This document shows, in pieces, positions 5,410-58,733 of a stretch of DNA of 64,000 bases (positions within the stretch are counted from its first letter, which is position 1; the number at the start of each line of letters is the position of its first letter). The DNA lies in assembly GCF_001432305.1 (NCBI RefSeq), contig NZ_KQ483358.1:2973710-3037709 (forward strand), given 5' to 3'. Made by a program: the position numbers and the translations under genes. This DNA is from Curvibacter sp. PAE-UM (lineage in GTDB: Bacteria; Pseudomonadota; Gammaproteobacteria; Burkholderiales; Burkholderiaceae_C). The notes beneath the pieces were generated by a model that saw only the letters and a program-made list of their open reading frames with translations, was not told the origin of the DNA and did no database searches.

Positions 5410-6489
5410 ATGGCTGATCTGTTCGACAATCCCATGGGCCTGTGCGGCTTCGAGTTCGTTGAATTCGCCTCGCCCGCGCCCAACACCCTGGAGCCCCTGT
5501 TCGAGAAGATGGGCTTCTCCCTGGTAGCACGCCACCGCAGCAAGGACGTGCTGCTCTACCGCCAGGGCCACATCAACTTCATCGTCAACCGCGAACCGCG
5601 CAGCCTGGCCGGCTACTTTGCCGCCGAGCATGGCCCCAGCGCCTGCGCCATGGCCTTTCGTGTGCGCGATTCACACCAGGCCTATGCCCGTGCGCTGGAG
5701 CTGGGCGCGCAGCCGGTGGACGTTCCCACCGGGCCCATGGAGCTGCGCCTGCCGGCGATCAAGGGCATCGGCGGCGCGTCGCTCTATCTGATCGACCGCT
5801 TCGAGGACGGCAAGAGCATCTACGACATCGACTTCGAATTCATCGAGGGCGTGGACCGCCACCCGCGCGGCCATGGCTTCCAGGTGATCGACCATCTGAC
5901 GCACAACGTCTACCGCGGCCGCATGGCCTTCTGGGGCGCCTTCTACGAACGCATCTTCAACTTCCGCGAGATCCGCTACTTCGACATCAAAGGCGAGTAC
6001 ACCGGCTTGACCAGCCGCGCCATGATGGCGCCCGACGGGCTGATCCGCATCCCGCTGAATGAGGAATCGGGCCGCGGCACGGGCCAGATCGAGGAGTACC
6101 TGATGAAGTTCAGCGGCGAGGGCATCCAGCACATCGCCCTGCTGACGGACAACCTGATCGAGAGCGTGGATGCACTGCAGCTTGCCGGCATTCCGCTGAT
6201 GACAGCGCCCAACGACATCTATTACGACATGCTGGCCGAGCGCCTGCCCGGCCACGGCGAGCCCGTGCCCGAACTGCAGGCGCGCGGCATTTTGCTCGAC
6301 GGCTCCACCAAGGACGGACGGCCACGCCTGCTGCTGCAGATCTTCTCCGAGACGCTGCTGGGCCCGGTGTTCTTCGAGTTCATCCAGCGCAAGGCCGACG
6401 AGGGTTTTGGCGAGGGCAACTTCAAGGCCCTGTTCGAAAGCCTGGAGCGCGACCAGATCCGCCGCGGCGCGCTGAAAGTGGGCAACTGA
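5410..6489 (+). CDS. hppD: 4-hydroxyphenylpyruvate dioxygenase
   Basis: Converts 4-hydroxyphenylpyruvate to homogentisate in tyrosine degradation, using Fe(II). 359 residues, the bacterial length, made of two vicinal-oxygen-chelate halves. The iron ligands are visible as His162 (DHLTHN), His241 (QHIALLT) and Glu323 (FFEFIQRK), one residue offset from the Pseudomonas enzyme. The start has GGAG 9 bases upstream. No other homogentisate-pathway gene is nearby, so the rest of the pathway must be elsewhere. Confidence 0.97.
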
Positions 6490-32560: not shown

Positions 32561-33937
32561 TCAGACGACGGCTGTCTCCGGCACGCCAGCGTTCAGGTTC
32601 ACGTACCGCGCCACAAAGGCGCCGACGGCGCTCGCGGGCAGCGGCAGCCAGACGGTATGGCCGTCACCGGGGGCCACGTCCACGGGCTGACCTTCGGCGT
32701 TTTCCATGCGGCTGATGTCGTAGTCGACATTGCCGGCGGGCTGGATCAGTTCGAGCCGGTCGCCGACAGAAAACTTGTTGCGCACACGCACCTGCGCCAG
32801 GCCGCGCGCGGCATCAAAGGCAAGGACATCGCCCACGTACTGGCTGCGGCCCGATTCGGAATAGCCCTTGAGGTAGTTCTGTGTTTCCTGCGGCGTGTGG
32901 CGCTGGTAGAAGCCCGAGGTGTAACCGCGGTTGGCCAGGCCTTCGAGCTGACCCAGCAGGGCCGGGTCCAGGCCACGGCCGGCGGCGGCATCATCGATGG
33001 CCTGGCGGTAACTCTGCACGGTGCGCGCCACGTAATAGGGGCTCTTGGTGCGGCCCTCGATCTTGAGCGAATCGACGCCGATGGCCACCAGGCGCTGGAT
33101 GTGCTCGATGGCGCGCAGGTCCTTGGAGTTCATCACATAGGTGCCGTGCTCGTCTTCCTCGATGGGCATGAACTCGCCGGGGCGCTTGCTTTCCTCCAGC
33201 AGATAGGAAATCGATTCACGCGCCTCGCTGGGCAGCGTCTCGCCCTGGCCGCAGCTGTGGCCGGCAGCACGCGGGGGCGGGAGCACGTCGCCGCTGGCGT
33301 CCACCTGGGCGGTATGGGTCTTGTAGTCCCAGCGGCAGGCATTGGTGCAGCTGCCCTGGTTGGCGTCGCGGTGGTTGAAATAACCCGAGAGCAGGCAACG
33401 GCCCGAATAGGCGATGCACAGCGCGCCGTGCACGAAGACTTCGAGCTCGCTGTCGGGGCAGTCCTGGCGGATCTGCTCGACCTGGTCGAGCGACAACTCG
33501 CGCGACAGGATGATGCGCTTGACGCCCACCTTGTCCCAGAACTTCACCGCCGCCGAGTTGACCGTATTGGCCTGCACCGAGAGGTGGATCTCCATCTCGG
33601 GCCAGGTCTCGCGCACCAGCATGATGAGGCCCGGGTCGGACATGATCATGGCGTCGGGCTTCAGGGCGATCACCGGCGCCATGTTGCTCACGTAATGCTT
33701 GACCTTGTTGCCGTGCGGGAAGATGTTGGACACCAGGAAGAACTTGCGGCCGAGTTCGTGTGCGCGGTCGATGCCGGTTTTCAGCACCTCGATGTCGCCG
33801 AAATCGTTGTTGCGCACGCGCAGCGAATAACGCGGCTGGCCGGCGTAGATGGCATCCGCCCCGAAGGCGAAGGCCGTCTCCAGCATGGCCAGTGAACCGG
33901 CCGGGGCCAGCAGCTCGGGCGCCTTGCGTGCCATCAT
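32561..33937 (-). CDS. trhP: tRNA 5-hydroxyuridine modification protein TrhP (YegQ, U32 family)
   Basis: 458 residues, U32 peptidase-like fold. The conserved block HGALCIAYSGRCLLSGYFN and the Cys-rich segment (CTNACRWDY) are those of YegQ/TrhP, which makes 5-hydroxyuridine at the wobble position of tRNA with an Fe-S cluster and prephenate. N-terminus ARKAPELLAPAGSLAMLETAFAFGADAIYAG is typical. Two start codons (ATGATG) overlap the aroQ stop, so translation is coupled to aroQ. Prephenate use fits its pairing with a shikimate-pathway gene. Confidence 0.9.
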   Translation of the reverse strand: MMARKAPELLAPAGSLAMLETAFAFGADAIYAGQPRYSLRVRNNDFGDIEVLKTGIDRAHELGRKFFLVSNIFPHGNKVKHYVSNMAPVIALKPDAMIMSDPGLIMLVRETWPEMEIHLSVQANTVNSAAVKFWDKVGVKRIILSRELSLDQVEQIRQDCPDSELEVFVHGALCIAYSGRCLLSGYFNHRDANQGSCTNACRWDYKTHTAQVDASGDVLPPPRAAGHSCGQGETLPSEARESISYLLEESKRPGEFMPIEEDEHGTYVMNSKDLRAIEHIQRLVAIGVDSLKIEGRTKSPYYVARTVQSYRQAIDDAAAGRGLDPALLGQLEGLANRGYTSGFYQRHTPQETQNYLKGYSESGRSQYVGDVLAFDAARGLAQVRVRNKFSVGDRLELIQPAGNVDYDISRMENAEGQPVDVAPGDGHTVWLPLPASAVGAFVARYVNLNAGVPETAVV

Positions 33938-54908: not shown

Positions 54909-54930
54909 GGTATTTGGCTATCGTGGCTTT

Positions 54931-55010
54931 GCCGGGTCTCGCCCCGGCGGGCGAGGTACTTTTCTTTGCTTCGCCAAAGCAAAGTACCCAAAAGAAAGGC
55001 GAGCCGGGTG
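54931..55010 (+). repeat. dispersed hairpin repeat, copy 1
   Basis: Begins GCCGGGTCTCGCCCCGGCGG and contains a near-perfect hairpin (CTTTGCTT-CGCC-AAAGCAAAG). The reverse complement recurs at 56581-56660. From memory, similar elements are frequent after genes in Comamonadaceae; a genome search would confirm it. Confidence 0.75.
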
Positions 55011-55336
55011 CGTCGTCCCTGCGCTACGCTCCGGGCACGCTGCGTTGCTCGAACCGGGCGGGGTGCGCGCAAACTCGCTGCGCTCAAACATGCGCGCCCC
55101 ATTCTCCGCCCGCTCCTGCGCTACTCGCCTCCGCACACGGCAGTGGGAACCGGATACCTGAACCCCGCAGTCCACGCTGACGCGTGGGACTACGGGGTTC
55201 ACGGTTTGTCATGAACGACATGCGACGCTATAGTCAGTTAAATTCTTGAAACAAAACTAGCACTTAGCTTGCAGCAAGGGAGGCGCCAGGATGAACGTTC
55301 GTCCATGTTATTCCGCACTTTTGCGGTCCATATCAC

Positions 55337-55348
55337 GTTGGGCGTCAC
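55337..55348. repeat. attC R'-like core box at start of the first cassette
   Basis: GTTGGGC fits the GTTRRRY core, followed by GTCAC. The 12 bases GTTGGGCGTCAC are the exact reverse complement of GTGACGCCCAAC at 55788-55799, just after the first cassette gene. Confidence 0.6.
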
Positions 55349-55398
55349 AGGAGTGCTCGTGAACCAAGTGTTGTTCGTTTATGCGTAGGGAGGCCTGA

Positions 55399-55776
55399 GT
55401 GAGCATCACGAACTTCCTGCTTGCCGTCATCCTTTTCATCCTCGTCAAGCAGTTCTATCCAAGTGCTATCGATACGCTCGGCCCGGTTTTTCTAGGTGCC
55501 GCAGTTATCTATGGCTGCTATTGGTTGGTCGCAAAGCTGCCAGGAAAGAGGAAGCAAAGGAACGCAACGAAGCGACAAGAGGAAGAAGATGAGAAGGCCT
55601 TCTGGGAACACCAAGGAAGGCACAAAGCCATTCGATCCAAGTACGACCCCAAGCACGAGTGGAATGAGGCAACATCTGTTCCAAGTGAATACTTGCGTGA
55701 AGTTCAGCAGTTGAATCTGGAGTACAGAGAAATGCTCCAGCGTCGCAACGGATGGACTGCCGGAGACTTTCAGTAG
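55399..55776 (+). CDS. orphan membrane-associated protein, cassette gene 1
   Basis: 125 residues from a GTG with AGGGAGG directly upstream. An N-terminal helix pair (NFLLAVILFILVKQFY; LGAAVIYGCYWLVAKL) and a charged cytoplasmic tail (KRKQRNATKRQEEEDEKAFW). No family recognised. Less GC-rich than the neighbours and lies between integron-like core boxes, so it is probably a mobile gene cassette. Confidence 0.75.
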   Translation: MSITNFLLAVILFILVKQFYPSAIDTLGPVFLGAAVIYGCYWLVAKLPGKRKQRNATKRQEEEDEKAFWEHQGRHKAIRSKYDPKHEWNEATSVPSEYLREVQQLNLEYREMLQRRNGWTAGDFQ

Positions 55777-55787
55777 TGGGCGAAGCA

Positions 55788-55812
55788 GTGACGCCCAACT
55801 CAAACGTTAGAC
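55788..55812 (+). repeat. attC-like junction between cassette genes 1 and 2
   Basis: GTGACGCCCAAC-TCAAAC-GTTAGAC. GCCCAAC fits the RYYYAAC core and GTTAGAC the GTTRRRY core; AACTCAAACGTTAGAC matches the usual right end of attC sites. Only 6 bases separate the cores, so the internal hairpin of a functional attC is missing. Confidence 0.6.
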
Positions 55813-55816
55813 ACCA

Positions 55817-56371
55817 ATGGTTCCGATCGGATACATGTACAAGCAGGTCGCTCGTCGGCCAGATTGGATTAAAGCCCCCAACGTGGGAGATATCTATTCG
55901 CTGAGTGGATGTGTGTCTAAAGACTTCGCTGATTACATTAATTTCTGGCGGCACAATGGTTATTGGCTCTTCGATTCCCCACGGATCATCGAAGAGATCG
56001 CCTTAGCCAACTCAATCCCCCTTGATGGTTTATCACTGTTCTACTACGAAGCCCATGAAGAACAGTATGACGCGGACGATTGTGTGTGGACACCGTTTGC
56101 CCCTGAGCAATCGTTTGAAACAAACATAGAAATCCCACAATCAAAAACCCTTCAGGGCTTTGATGTGACCACCTTTCTCGTTCAAACTTCACCCGAGTGT
56201 TCACCCCTCTCATGTAACTCTCTGGCTGAAGGAGTTGCTACAAATGAACACTGTCTTCTTGCGACGTTTGACGAGGCGCAAGAGCTGGTGGAAAAAGGTG
56301 TGTTCACCGACGCTGAGCCGGGGCCTTACCGGATCATCGCTGTTTACACCGTGGAGCGTAATAGTGTCTAA
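55817..56371 (+). CDS. orphan protein, cassette gene 2
   Basis: 184 residues, soluble alpha/beta-looking (MYKQVARRPDWIKAPNVGDIYSL; FINFWR-type aromatics; acidic HEEQYDADD). No signal peptide or known domain; family not recognised. The ATG follows the GTTAGAC core by 4 bases, and its TAA stop is inside GTCTAAC, the complement of that core. These are the start and end features of an integron cassette gene. Confidence 0.72.
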   Translation: MVPIGYMYKQVARRPDWIKAPNVGDIYSLSGCVSKDFADYINFWRHNGYWLFDSPRIIEEIALANSIPLDGLSLFYYEAHEEQYDADDCVWTPFAPEQSFETNIEIPQSKTLQGFDVTTFLVQTSPECSPLSCNSLAEGVATNEHCLLATFDEAQELVEKGVFTDAEPGPYRIIAVYTVERNSV

Positions 56372-56372
56372 C
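56364..56372. repeat. attC R''-like core box at the end of cassette gene 2
   Basis: GTGTCTAAC, exact reverse complement of GTTAGACAC at 55806-55814. It contains the RYYYAAC core GTCTAAC and the gene's TAA stop. The rest of an attC is not evident downstream. Confidence 0.55.
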
Positions 56373-56387
56373 CTCTCACTTCACACG

Positions 56388-56421
56388 ACAAGGGCACGCG
56401 ATAGCGTGCCCTTGTCTTTTG
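56388..56421 (+). terminator. hairpin after cassette gene 2
   Basis: ACAAGGGCACGC-GATA-GCGTGCCCTTGT, a perfect 12-bp stem followed by CTTTTGT; a good terminator. The remaining gap to 56697 holds a second dispersed repeat. Confidence 0.8.
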
Positions 56422-56580: not shown

Positions 56581-56660
56581 CACCAGGGTCGCCTTCTCTT
56601 TGCTTACTTTCTCTTGGCGAAGCAAGAGAAAGTGAGTCGCCCGCCGGGGCGAGACCCGGC
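56581..56660 (-). repeat. dispersed hairpin repeat, copy 2 (inverted)
   Basis: Reverse-complement relative of 54931-55010. It contains the perfect hairpin ACTTTCTCTTG-GCGAAG-CAAGAGAAAGT (56606-56633) and ends with GAGACCCGGC. Confidence 0.75.
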
Positions 56661-56697
56661 TAGCCACGTCAACCAACTCGTCACCCGCCAGCAGATA

Positions 56698-57672
56698 TCA
56701 ATCCAGCTTGACCCCCGCGTCCTTCACCAACTTCACCCAGAACTTCTCATCCTGAACCAGAAAAGCCGCATAGTCCGCCGGCGACTTGGACAAGGAAACC
56801 TCGGTCCCCTCACGCGCCAGCGCCGCCTTGACCGAGTCCTGCTGCATGGCCGTGCGTGTGGCCTCGAAGATCTTCTGCACGATGGCCGGGGGCGTGCCAG
56901 CCGGCACGAAGAAGCCGTACCAGAAGTCCAGGTTGTACTCCGGCAGGCCGGCGTCCTTCATGCCCGGCAGATCCGGGAACAGGGCACTGCGCTCCGTCGC
57001 GCTGATCCCCAGGCCACGCACGCGGCCGGACTGGATGTGCGGCAAGGTGGACGGCGGTGTGCCGAAGTAGATATGCGTATCACCCGCAATCAGCGACTGC
57101 ATGGCCGGCCCGCCCCCGCGGTAGGGAATCTCGGTGAACTTGACCCCGGCCACCTGGGCGAACTGCGCGGCGCCCAGATGGGTGGCCGAGCCGTTGCCGG
57201 CGGTGGCCACGTTCAGGGCGCCCGGGGTGGCCTTGGCCTTGGCGATCAGCTCTTTCACCGAGTTGATGCCGGCGTTCGGGTTGACCGCGATCACCAGCGG
57301 CGAAGCCGTGAGCTTGGTCACGGGTTGCAGATCACTGGGCTTGTAGTTCAGCTTGGGATTGAGCGCGGGGTTGACCGAGATGCTGCTCGGGCTGGCGATC
57401 AGCAGGGTGTAGCCATCGGGGGCCGACTTGGCCACCAGATCCGCGGCAATGCTGGAGCCGGCACCGGCCTTGTTCTCGATCACGATGGGCTGGCCCAGGG
57501 CGCGGCCCAGGGCCTCACCCACGGAACGCGCCACATAGTCGGCGGCCCCTCCCGGGGCAAAACCGACCACCAGCTTGATGGGTTTGTTCGGATAGGCCGG
57601 CGCCTGCGCTGCAGCAGACGAAACTCCCCCCAGGGCCAGCAGCCCCGCGAGCACGATAGACCCCTGTCGCAT
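56698..57672 (-). CDS. Bug-family periplasmic solute receptor, copy 1
   Basis: 324 residues, tripartite tricarboxylate transporter receptor (Bug) family. Signal peptide (LAGLLALGGVSSAAAQAPAY) and the family block YPNKPIKLVVGFAPGGAADY. Binds an organic acid in the periplasm; ligand unknown. Very similar to the next gene, from which it is 86 bases away, so it arose by tandem duplication. No TctA/TctB permease is in the window. Last gene of the operon. Confidence 0.93.
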   Translation of the reverse strand: MRQGSIVLAGLLALGGVSSAAAQAPAYPNKPIKLVVGFAPGGAADYVARSVGEALGRALGQPIVIENKAGAGSSIAADLVAKSAPDGYTLLIASPSSISVNPALNPKLNYKPSDLQPVTKLTASPLVIAVNPNAGINSVKELIAKAKATPGALNVATAGNGSATHLGAAQFAQVAGVKFTEIPYRGGGPAMQSLIAGDTHIYFGTPPSTLPHIQSGRVRGLGISATERSALFPDLPGMKDAGLPEYNLDFWYGFFVPAGTPPAIVQKIFEATRTAMQQDSVKAALAREGTEVSLSKSPADYAAFLVQDEKFWVKLVKDAGVKLD

Positions 57673-57758: not shown

Positions 57759-58733
57759 TCAATTCAGGGTGACGCCGGCATCCTTGACCAGCTTCACCCA
57801 GAACATCTCGTCCTTGGCCAGGAAGGCCGCAAAGTCTGCGGGCGACCTGGAGATGGAGATGTCGGTGCCTTCGCGGGCCAGTGCCGCCTTCACGGACGGT
57901 TGCTGCAAGGCCTGCTGGGTGGCATCAAAGAGCTTCTGCACAATCGCCGGCGGCGTGCCTGCGGGGACGAAAAAGCCGTACCAGAAGTCGATGGCGTAGT
58001 CCGGCAGGCCGGCTTCCTTCATGCCCGGCAGCTCCGGGAACAAGGGGGTGCGCTCCAGCGTGCTGACCGCCAAGCCGCGCAGGCGACCAGCCTGGATCAT
58101 GGGCAGCACCGAGGGCGGCGTGCCGAAGGTGAGCTGCGTGTCGCCGGCCACCACCGACTGGATGGCCGGGGCGCCACCGCGAAACGGGATGTGCTGCATC
58201 TGCACGCCGGCCACCTGGCTGAAATGGGCCGCACCCAGGTGTGGCGCCGAGCCGTTGCCCGAGGTGGCGTAGTTCAAGGTGCCGGGGGCCGCCTTGGCCT
58301 TGGCGATCAGTTCCTTGACCGAGGTGATGCCTGTGGCCGGATTGGCCGCAATCACCAGGGGCGAAGCCGTCAGCTTGGTGACGGGTAACAGGTCGCTGGC
58401 CTTGTAACCCAGCTTGGGGTTGAGCGCGGGGTTGACCGAAATGCTGCTCGGGCTGGCGATCAGCAGGGTGTAGCCATCGGGCGCGGACTTGGCCACGGCC
58501 TCGGCCGCGATGCTGGAGCCGGCACCCGCCTTGTTCTCGATGACGATGGGCTGACCCAGGGCTCGGCTCAAGGACTCGCCGATCGCACGGGCGACAAAAT
58601 CGGCAGCGCCGCCCGGCGCGAAACCCACCACCAGTTTCACGGGCTTGGCCGGGTAGGCCGGCGCCTGGGCCAGCGCGACGTGGGAACAGCTGCCCAGAAC
58701 CAGGGCAGCCAGCAGCAGTTTGCGTTTGTGCAT
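57759..58733 (-). CDS. Bug-family periplasmic solute receptor, copy 2
   Basis: 324 residues with signal peptide (LLLAALVLGSCSHVALAQAP). Same family and nearly the same blocks as copy 1 (VVGFAPGGAADFVARAIGES, VIENKAGAGSSIAAEAVAKS). Binding residues differ in places (for example MQHIPFRGG against FTEIPYRGG), so it may bind a related acid. Follows the zinc-less alcohol dehydrogenase gene by 52 bases. Confidence 0.93.
   Translation of the reverse strand: MHKRKLLLAALVLGSCSHVALAQAPAYPAKPVKLVVGFAPGGAADFVARAIGESLSRALGQPIVIENKAGAGSSIAAEAVAKSAPDGYTLLIASPSSISVNPALNPKLGYKASDLLPVTKLTASPLVIAANPATGITSVKELIAKAKAAPGTLNYATSGNGSAPHLGAAHFSQVAGVQMQHIPFRGGAPAIQSVVAGDTQLTFGTPPSVLPMIQAGRLRGLAVSTLERTPLFPELPGMKEAGLPDYAIDFWYGFFVPAGTPPAIVQKLFDATQQALQQPSVKAALAREGTDISISRSPADFAAFLAKDEMFWVKLVKDAGVTLN

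Follow-up and report, generated by a model that had tools for sequence, protein, structure and literature searches.

The integron integrase, IntI, joins attI and attC at GTT, and the promoter Pc drives the first cassettes. Integrons have been described as a single platform, composed of intI, attI and Pc, in which good expression is confined to the first cassettes. Several published accounts describe arrangements related to the one that we report. CALIN are groups of at least two attC sites without an integrase that lie at fixed places away from intI, for example in Xanthomonas (PMC12444791), and attG sites are reported to be genomic targets, neither attI nor attC, at which cassettes are found outside the platform of the integron (Loot et al. 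2024, Nat Microbiol). In class 1 integrons, ORF-11 within attI1 aids translation, with the first cassette supplying its stop codon (PMC8876359), and partial or total loss of attC fuses neighbouring cassettes in an array (PMC4670013). Off-target and attI-like reactions of IntI have also been described (PMC10127599). The literature matches listed included no description of several attI copies lacking intI; such a negative is weak, with subscription journals under-covered.

Here we analyse a cassette locus in a 64-kb window, by which we mean the whole stretch of DNA under study; coordinates without a genome label are positions in this window, and its own genome is labelled G000. The locus is very probably an orphan-attI cassette array, that is, an intI-less attI module at a fixed chromosomal place and one of at least ten such modules in G000. 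It shares with sedentary chromosomal integrons an attI-like module, a Pc-like promoter, cassette cores and, at sister loci, attC-like sites, but here attI and cassettes stand without intI at at least ten places, and G000 also has one complete integron. No intI adjoins the module or occurs elsewhere within the 64-kb window. A preliminary description of this DNA had called the locus CALIN-like. The term is apt in that cassettes occur at a conserved place without a neighbouring intI, as in Xanthomonas (PMC12444791), but the window array is headed by a multi-copy attI-like site, one of at least ten copies, and because no intact attC was found at the locus, against the at least two of the definition, it is not strictly a CALIN. 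It also has in common with attG sites that cassettes lie away from the integron platform, but the target in the window is a conserved attI-related module and not a non-classical genomic site.

Two probable cassettes without attC hairpins

Two genes on the + strand, the strand of all features located below in the array and its platform, are bounded by exact inverted core boxes at the positions where the preliminary description had placed them. GTTGGGCGTCAC at 55337–55348 recurs as its exact reverse complement at 55788–55799 (a 12-bp pair), and GTTAGACAC at 55806–55814 recurs in the same way at 56364–56372 (a 9-bp pair). Just two GTTRRRY 7-mers in the 64 kb have an exact reverse complement 100–700 bp downstream, and they belong to these two boxes. 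In 100 dinucleotide-preserving shuffles of the window, the 12-mer pair did not occur at all, and the 9-mer pair had a mean of 0.26 occurrences (maximum 2, both strands), compared with 4 in the window counted alike, a figure of 4 because every pair appears once per strand. The first box, GTTGGGC plus GTCAC (55337–55348), forms the attI core and the start of cassette 1. As previously noted, the ATG of gene 2 (55817) lies four bases past GTTAGAC and its stop codon (56369–56371) falls within GTCTAAC. Both genes thus lie between a GTTRRRY start and a pairing R'' end.

The attC hairpins are missing from these ends, which agrees with the preliminary description. Between the two genes (55793–55812) is a collapsed attC that consists of R'' (GCCCAAC), a 6-bp spacer (TCAAAC) and R' (GTTAGAC), a junction of 20 bp, as against 60–114 bp for attC-like sites with an exact R'' at sister loci. 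Several of the sister-locus attC-like sites end in TCAAACGTTAG, and a recurring 60-bp attC terminates in CATCTCAAACGTTA; because sister attC sites end likewise, the junction can be described as R'' plus the last 13 bp of an attC of the 60-bp type, and its likeness to the right end of attC, already pointed out, is borne out. The same collapsed site lies between other genes at one locus of another genome (G018d), and it may have arisen by slippage. Cassette 2 ends in an R'', GTCTAAC (56364–56372), which matches its own start over 9 bp and lacks the remaining attC. Loss of attC is common to these cassettes and the fused cassettes of PMC4670013; there the setting is a class 1 array, and in the window it is an orphan attI array. 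With no intI in the 64-kb window and the attC hairpins lost, the idea of an integrase-less, frozen cassette relic stands, and the sequence is best read as two integron cassettes minus their attC hairpins. Because these hairpins are lost, excision of either cassette on its own is probably no longer possible.

The array appears to end at a terminator-like hairpin of 13 pairs (56387–56416), which was recognized from sequence and congener comparison; at the corresponding locus it also closes the arrays of G010, G018 and G020, and a variant closes that of G013. An intergenic repeat of the CTTTGCTTCGCCAAAG type lies in inverted copies on both sides of the locus, at 54920–55200 and 56590–56665, and CTTTGCTTCGCCAAAG-like repeats are present in congeners at the same locus. 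Further downstream, two adjacent genes (56698–57672 and 57759–58733) encode similar 324-aa proteins, which we take to resemble tripartite-tricarboxylate (Bug-type) binding proteins.

Cassette gene 1 (55399–55776) has a GTG start and encodes 125 aa, and cassette gene 2 (55817–56371) encodes 184 aa; neither has a family in Pfam, NCBIfam or PADLOC. Gene 1 gave a sub-threshold match to PA3371 (E 0.052, 14.5 bits against a cut-off of 50), and no homologue was found in the 59 other genomes, plasmids and viral contigs searched. Gene 2 has homologues in distant phyla; the carriers are MAGs of Acidobacteriota (two), Competibacteraceae and Nitrospira (one each), a Granulicella plasmid, and G058, a member of the same order and the only carrier among the 59 other genomes, where the gene is at another place; there was none in viral contigs. 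The AlphaFold model of gene 2 is unusable (mean pLDDT 36.2). On a contig of the Competibacteraceae MAG (L006), a homologue with 62% identity over residues 3–135, apparently truncated near residue 135, begins five bases beyond the GTTAGGC that ends a complete 69-bp attC (5921–5989). In at least one case, therefore, the gene 2 family is carried as an integron cassette, and the objection that its homologues never occur in integron arrays does not apply to the preliminary description. The remaining homologues had no obvious attC on reading by eye.

An attI-like module heads the array

Immediately left of cassette 1 lies an attI-like platform module, designated type B (55194–55342). It is the sole match in the window (131 bits) to R1, a sequence-only model that we built from 23 type-B platform copies. 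The conserved layout, approximately 150 bp long, comprises a promoter-like site, a Shine–Dalgarno sequence, a short leader ORF and a GTT core, and homology among copies stops at the core or within about 10 bp of it. The promoter-like site (TTGTCA, 17 nt, TATAGT; 55206–55234) matches the consensus at 10 of 12 positions, which by itself is not above chance, with 0.7 such sites expected per shuffle; its TATA part is invariant across the 23 aligned copies. An 18-bp inverted repeat (55160–55200) lies directly 5' of this site.

The leader ORF (55291–55362) runs across the attI core and takes its stop codon from the cassette, and it is preceded by a Shine–Dalgarno-like GGGAGG (55278–55283) that is kept in copies. 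The spacing between the leader ATG and the core is shared by 38 of 57 copies, 37 of which are open to the core. We considered that the leader might encode a conserved peptide and rejected this idea, as changes fall evenly over codon positions (60, 50 and 68); because there is no codon-position bias, there is no sign of a conserved leader peptide. A Shine–Dalgarno sequence and a short ORF that spans the crossover point and ends at a cassette-supplied stop are also features of ORF-11 of class 1 integrons (PMC8876359), but the two sequences are unrelated as far as seen. By analogy in layout, the Pc-like promoter would transcribe the cassettes, and the leader, ending inside the first cassette, would help cassette expression.

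The module is dispersed and related to the attI of a resident integron

Searching G000 with R1 identified matches at at least 11 places (E ≤0.001): the window copy, the attI of a resident integron and nine others, at 2818272, 928290, 1845931, 3572823, 33590, 330603, 2971402, 1820498 and 3118617. As 118 candidates per genome were scored in the genome-wide search, copy counts are lower bounds. The matches at 33590, 330603, 2971402, 1820498 and 3118617 are weak against the type-B model, and that at 3572823 (E 2.9e-18) is not among them. Three of the five (33590, 1820498 and 3118617) are type-A copies, directly similar to the resident attI; behind the copy at 2971402 lies a cassette that has an exact R'' and an attC-like site, and the match at 330603 is the most doubtful. 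The 14-kb stretches around these nine copies contained no intI that we could find, and the flanks examined held no intI remnant. Across the genus, at least 78 copies were found in at least 19 of 26 genomes. A nucleotide search of 149 genomes detected type-B modules in these 19 genomes of the genus and in one other genus, and no match was found on plasmids. Above the cut-off, intI was detected only in G000 and G023 among genus genomes; 17 of the 19 platform-bearing genomes, many of them drafts, are without it, and G018, a one-contig genome, has at least seven copies and no intI above the cut-off.

The preliminary description had suggested looking for intI elsewhere in the chromosome. None lies beside the locus, but G000 does hold an intact one, at C1:1643185–1644129 and 1.38 Mb from the window locus, which is the only gene above the curated cut-off (456 bits compared with 265). 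Beside it are an attI with the core GTTAGAA, a cassette that ends in an exact R'' (TTCTAAC) and an attC. The resident attI has the same layout as the platform, with GGGAGG, an ATG and a short frame that reaches TAG in the core, and R1 finds this intI-adjacent attI with an E value of 2.5e-4 in the whole genome and 6.8e-6 among 15 fetched stretches. R1 found none of the attI sites of 11 other intI loci. Plain pairwise alignment of the window platform to the resident attI gave a borderline result, its score being equalled or exceeded in 1 of 1000 shuffles, and three other orphan copies align to it at 90.9% identity over 110 bp (G000i), 80.4% over 281 bp (G000j) and 86.2% over 87 bp (G000f).

Several further observations were made on the integrase loci. 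CTG-N10-CAG occurs at the intI start in G000 (L049, around 1190–1212) and in G023 (L171, near its end), which we take to be a LexA-like box suggesting SOS control. In the resident integron, the final cassette gives way to a segment of approximately 150–230 bp (AAGAAACTGACCGATTGGGGACC...; L049 3908–4057), and the AAGAAACTGACCGATTGGGGACC segment also follows the final cassette of three orphan arrays, G000e (L121), G000j (L126) and G003c (L135); by position it resembles a 3' conserved segment. One family member, G035, has two intI genes above the cut-off (C4:1684–2628 and C7:2679–3623).

Three other intI-bearing genomes (G027, G029 and G057) were searched with their own attI regions. Those of two other genera, G027 and G029, each hold at least one intI-less copy of their own attI family. 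Behind the extra copy in G027 come a gene and a complete attC with a matching R'', and homology of the extra copy in G029 ends at GTT, with its attC not established. No second attI was found in G057.

Cassette signatures behind the module

We analysed 57 loci of the at least 78; the 21 left out were weak matches in genomes other than G000 and G018, and copies close to or at the end of a contig. GTT is present at the core in 44 of the 57 and missing from 13, and removing these 13, together with one locus (G010a) that has the same cassette as G018a, left 43 for permutation. The cores of G000f, G018c and G010b were re-placed by script, which left the following count unchanged. In 20 of the 43, the core 7-mer has an exact reverse complement 100–1600 bp downstream, and 23 have no exact R''; when cores were dealt among loci in 2000 trials, the mean was 4.46 and the maximum 12. 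An exact R'' followed by an attC-like hairpin occurs at 14 of the 43 loci, compared with a mean of 1.99 and a maximum of 6 in 200 permutations. Allowing one R'' mismatch gave 19 of 43 against a mean of 8.8 and a maximum of 15, a weaker contrast for attC. Behind cassette 1, about half of the orphan copies in the window's own genome (G000b, d, e, h and i) retain a complete attC-like site. Cassette boundaries can therefore be read from sequence at many copies of the module.

Different cassettes occupy the same chromosomal place

At the window locus, the platform is common to five species (G000, G010, G018, G013 and G020), which have four cassette contents among them: G010 and G018 are the same, and G000, G013 and G020 each differ, the comparison for G020 covering the start and the terminator only. 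Homology among congeners extends to the first core, gives way to different genes and resumes at the hairpin at 56387. None of the 59 other genomes searched carried both window genes at this place without core boxes, a finding that would have told against the preliminary description; congeners have other genes there. A piece of the platform lies at a contig end in G006, and in G014 the two flanking genes are about 40 bp apart with no platform. G000 and G018 have four platform places in common, and the genes after the core differ at all four.

The cassette shared by G010 and G018 is 99.6% identical (1373 of 1379 positions), compared with 94.0% for the 150 bp left of the core and 90.0% and 91.6% for the flanking genes. 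This near-identity extends about 95 bp beyond R'' on the right. A clean IntI exchange would not be expected to leave such an overrun, and a tract of homologous recombination is possible.

No clean empty site was found for the type-A copy G000i in 15 compared of the 24 genomes that have the flank. The place at G000:C1:1819699–1820600, downstream of a gene that is presumably tsaD, is highly variable across G000 and its congeners (L201–L215): G000 has a copy of attI there, G009 an attI-like fragment, G010 a remnant of 44 bp and other congeners different genes.

Origin of the orphan arrays

We propose that an attI module of approximately 150 bp, without intI and related to the resident attI, holds a fixed chromosomal place, that cassettes would enter at its GTT core, and that the array from there to the terminator would be served by the promoter and leader of the module, both of which we infer to be working. 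An integron integrase acting in trans, whether the resident IntI or one that preceded it, may have filled the orphan sites, and new cassettes could still enter the window site. Present-day IntI in trans cannot hold for all copies, because 17 of the 19 platform genomes are without intI above the cut-off.

How the modules came to be where they are can be explained in more than one way. We give somewhat less than an even chance to the explanation that each orphan attI is the remains of a separate old complete integron from which intI was deleted, the cassettes being inherited or exchanged by homologous recombination only and nothing acting on them in trans now. The orphan copies in G000j and G029 seem to begin within the first ~10 intI codons (the G029 intI start being extrapolated) and end at the core, and for this reason an origin from intI–attI segments that lost intI is favoured. 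The window and three other places common to several species, the scarcity of detected intI in platform-bearing genomes of the genus, the vanished attC at the window locus and the G010/G018 tract beyond R'' are all consistent with such relics. The full attC-like sites behind cassette 1 at five own-genome loci, the intact intI in the same cell and the absence of intI remnants from the flanks examined argue against them.

A more tentative explanation is that attI modules were copied round the chromosome, with one IntI serving all of them in trans. G000 has one intI and at least 11 attI copies, the type-A copies reach 90.9% identity with the attI beside intI, matched R'' sequences and attC-like hairpins lie behind orphan cores, and G027 and G029 have intI-less attI copies too. 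This explanation has to accommodate, however, the seven or more copies in G018, which has no detected intI, and the G000i place, where no clean empty site was seen; moreover, no mechanism for copying attI itself is known to us. It is possible, although we would sooner doubt it, that a single IntI serves, or until recently served, ten or more attI–Pc platforms, each expressing its own first cassette.

It is improbable that the locus is simply a cassette cluster that lost the integrase and whose left edge is unremarkable: core boxes and lost attC would suit such a CALIN in the strict sense, but the locus has no intact attC, and the upstream module is dispersed and matches an intI-adjacent attI, which already contradicts a plain left edge. 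A dispersed promoter–leader repeat of non-integron origin that precedes accessory genes by chance is very improbable, for although the window copy is only weakly similar to the resident attI in pairwise alignment and other intergenic repeats are abundant here, core/R'' complementarity and attC-like hairpins far exceed permutation, R1 matches the intI-adjacent attI and homology among copies stops at the core.

The reading of the window locus as an orphan-attI array raises the question of whether IntI inserts cassettes into an attI that has no adjoining intI. Screens that rely on attC or on attI sites already known would miss dispersed platforms, because attI differs between lineages, as illustrated by R1, which recovered none of the 11 other loci. 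Dispersed attI–Pc copies would explain some integrase-less arrays as attI-headed satellites or integron remains. If the proposal is true, they would also provide many first positions per cell, lifting the limit of one first position, and gene capture in this bacterium may be spread over many places rather than one.
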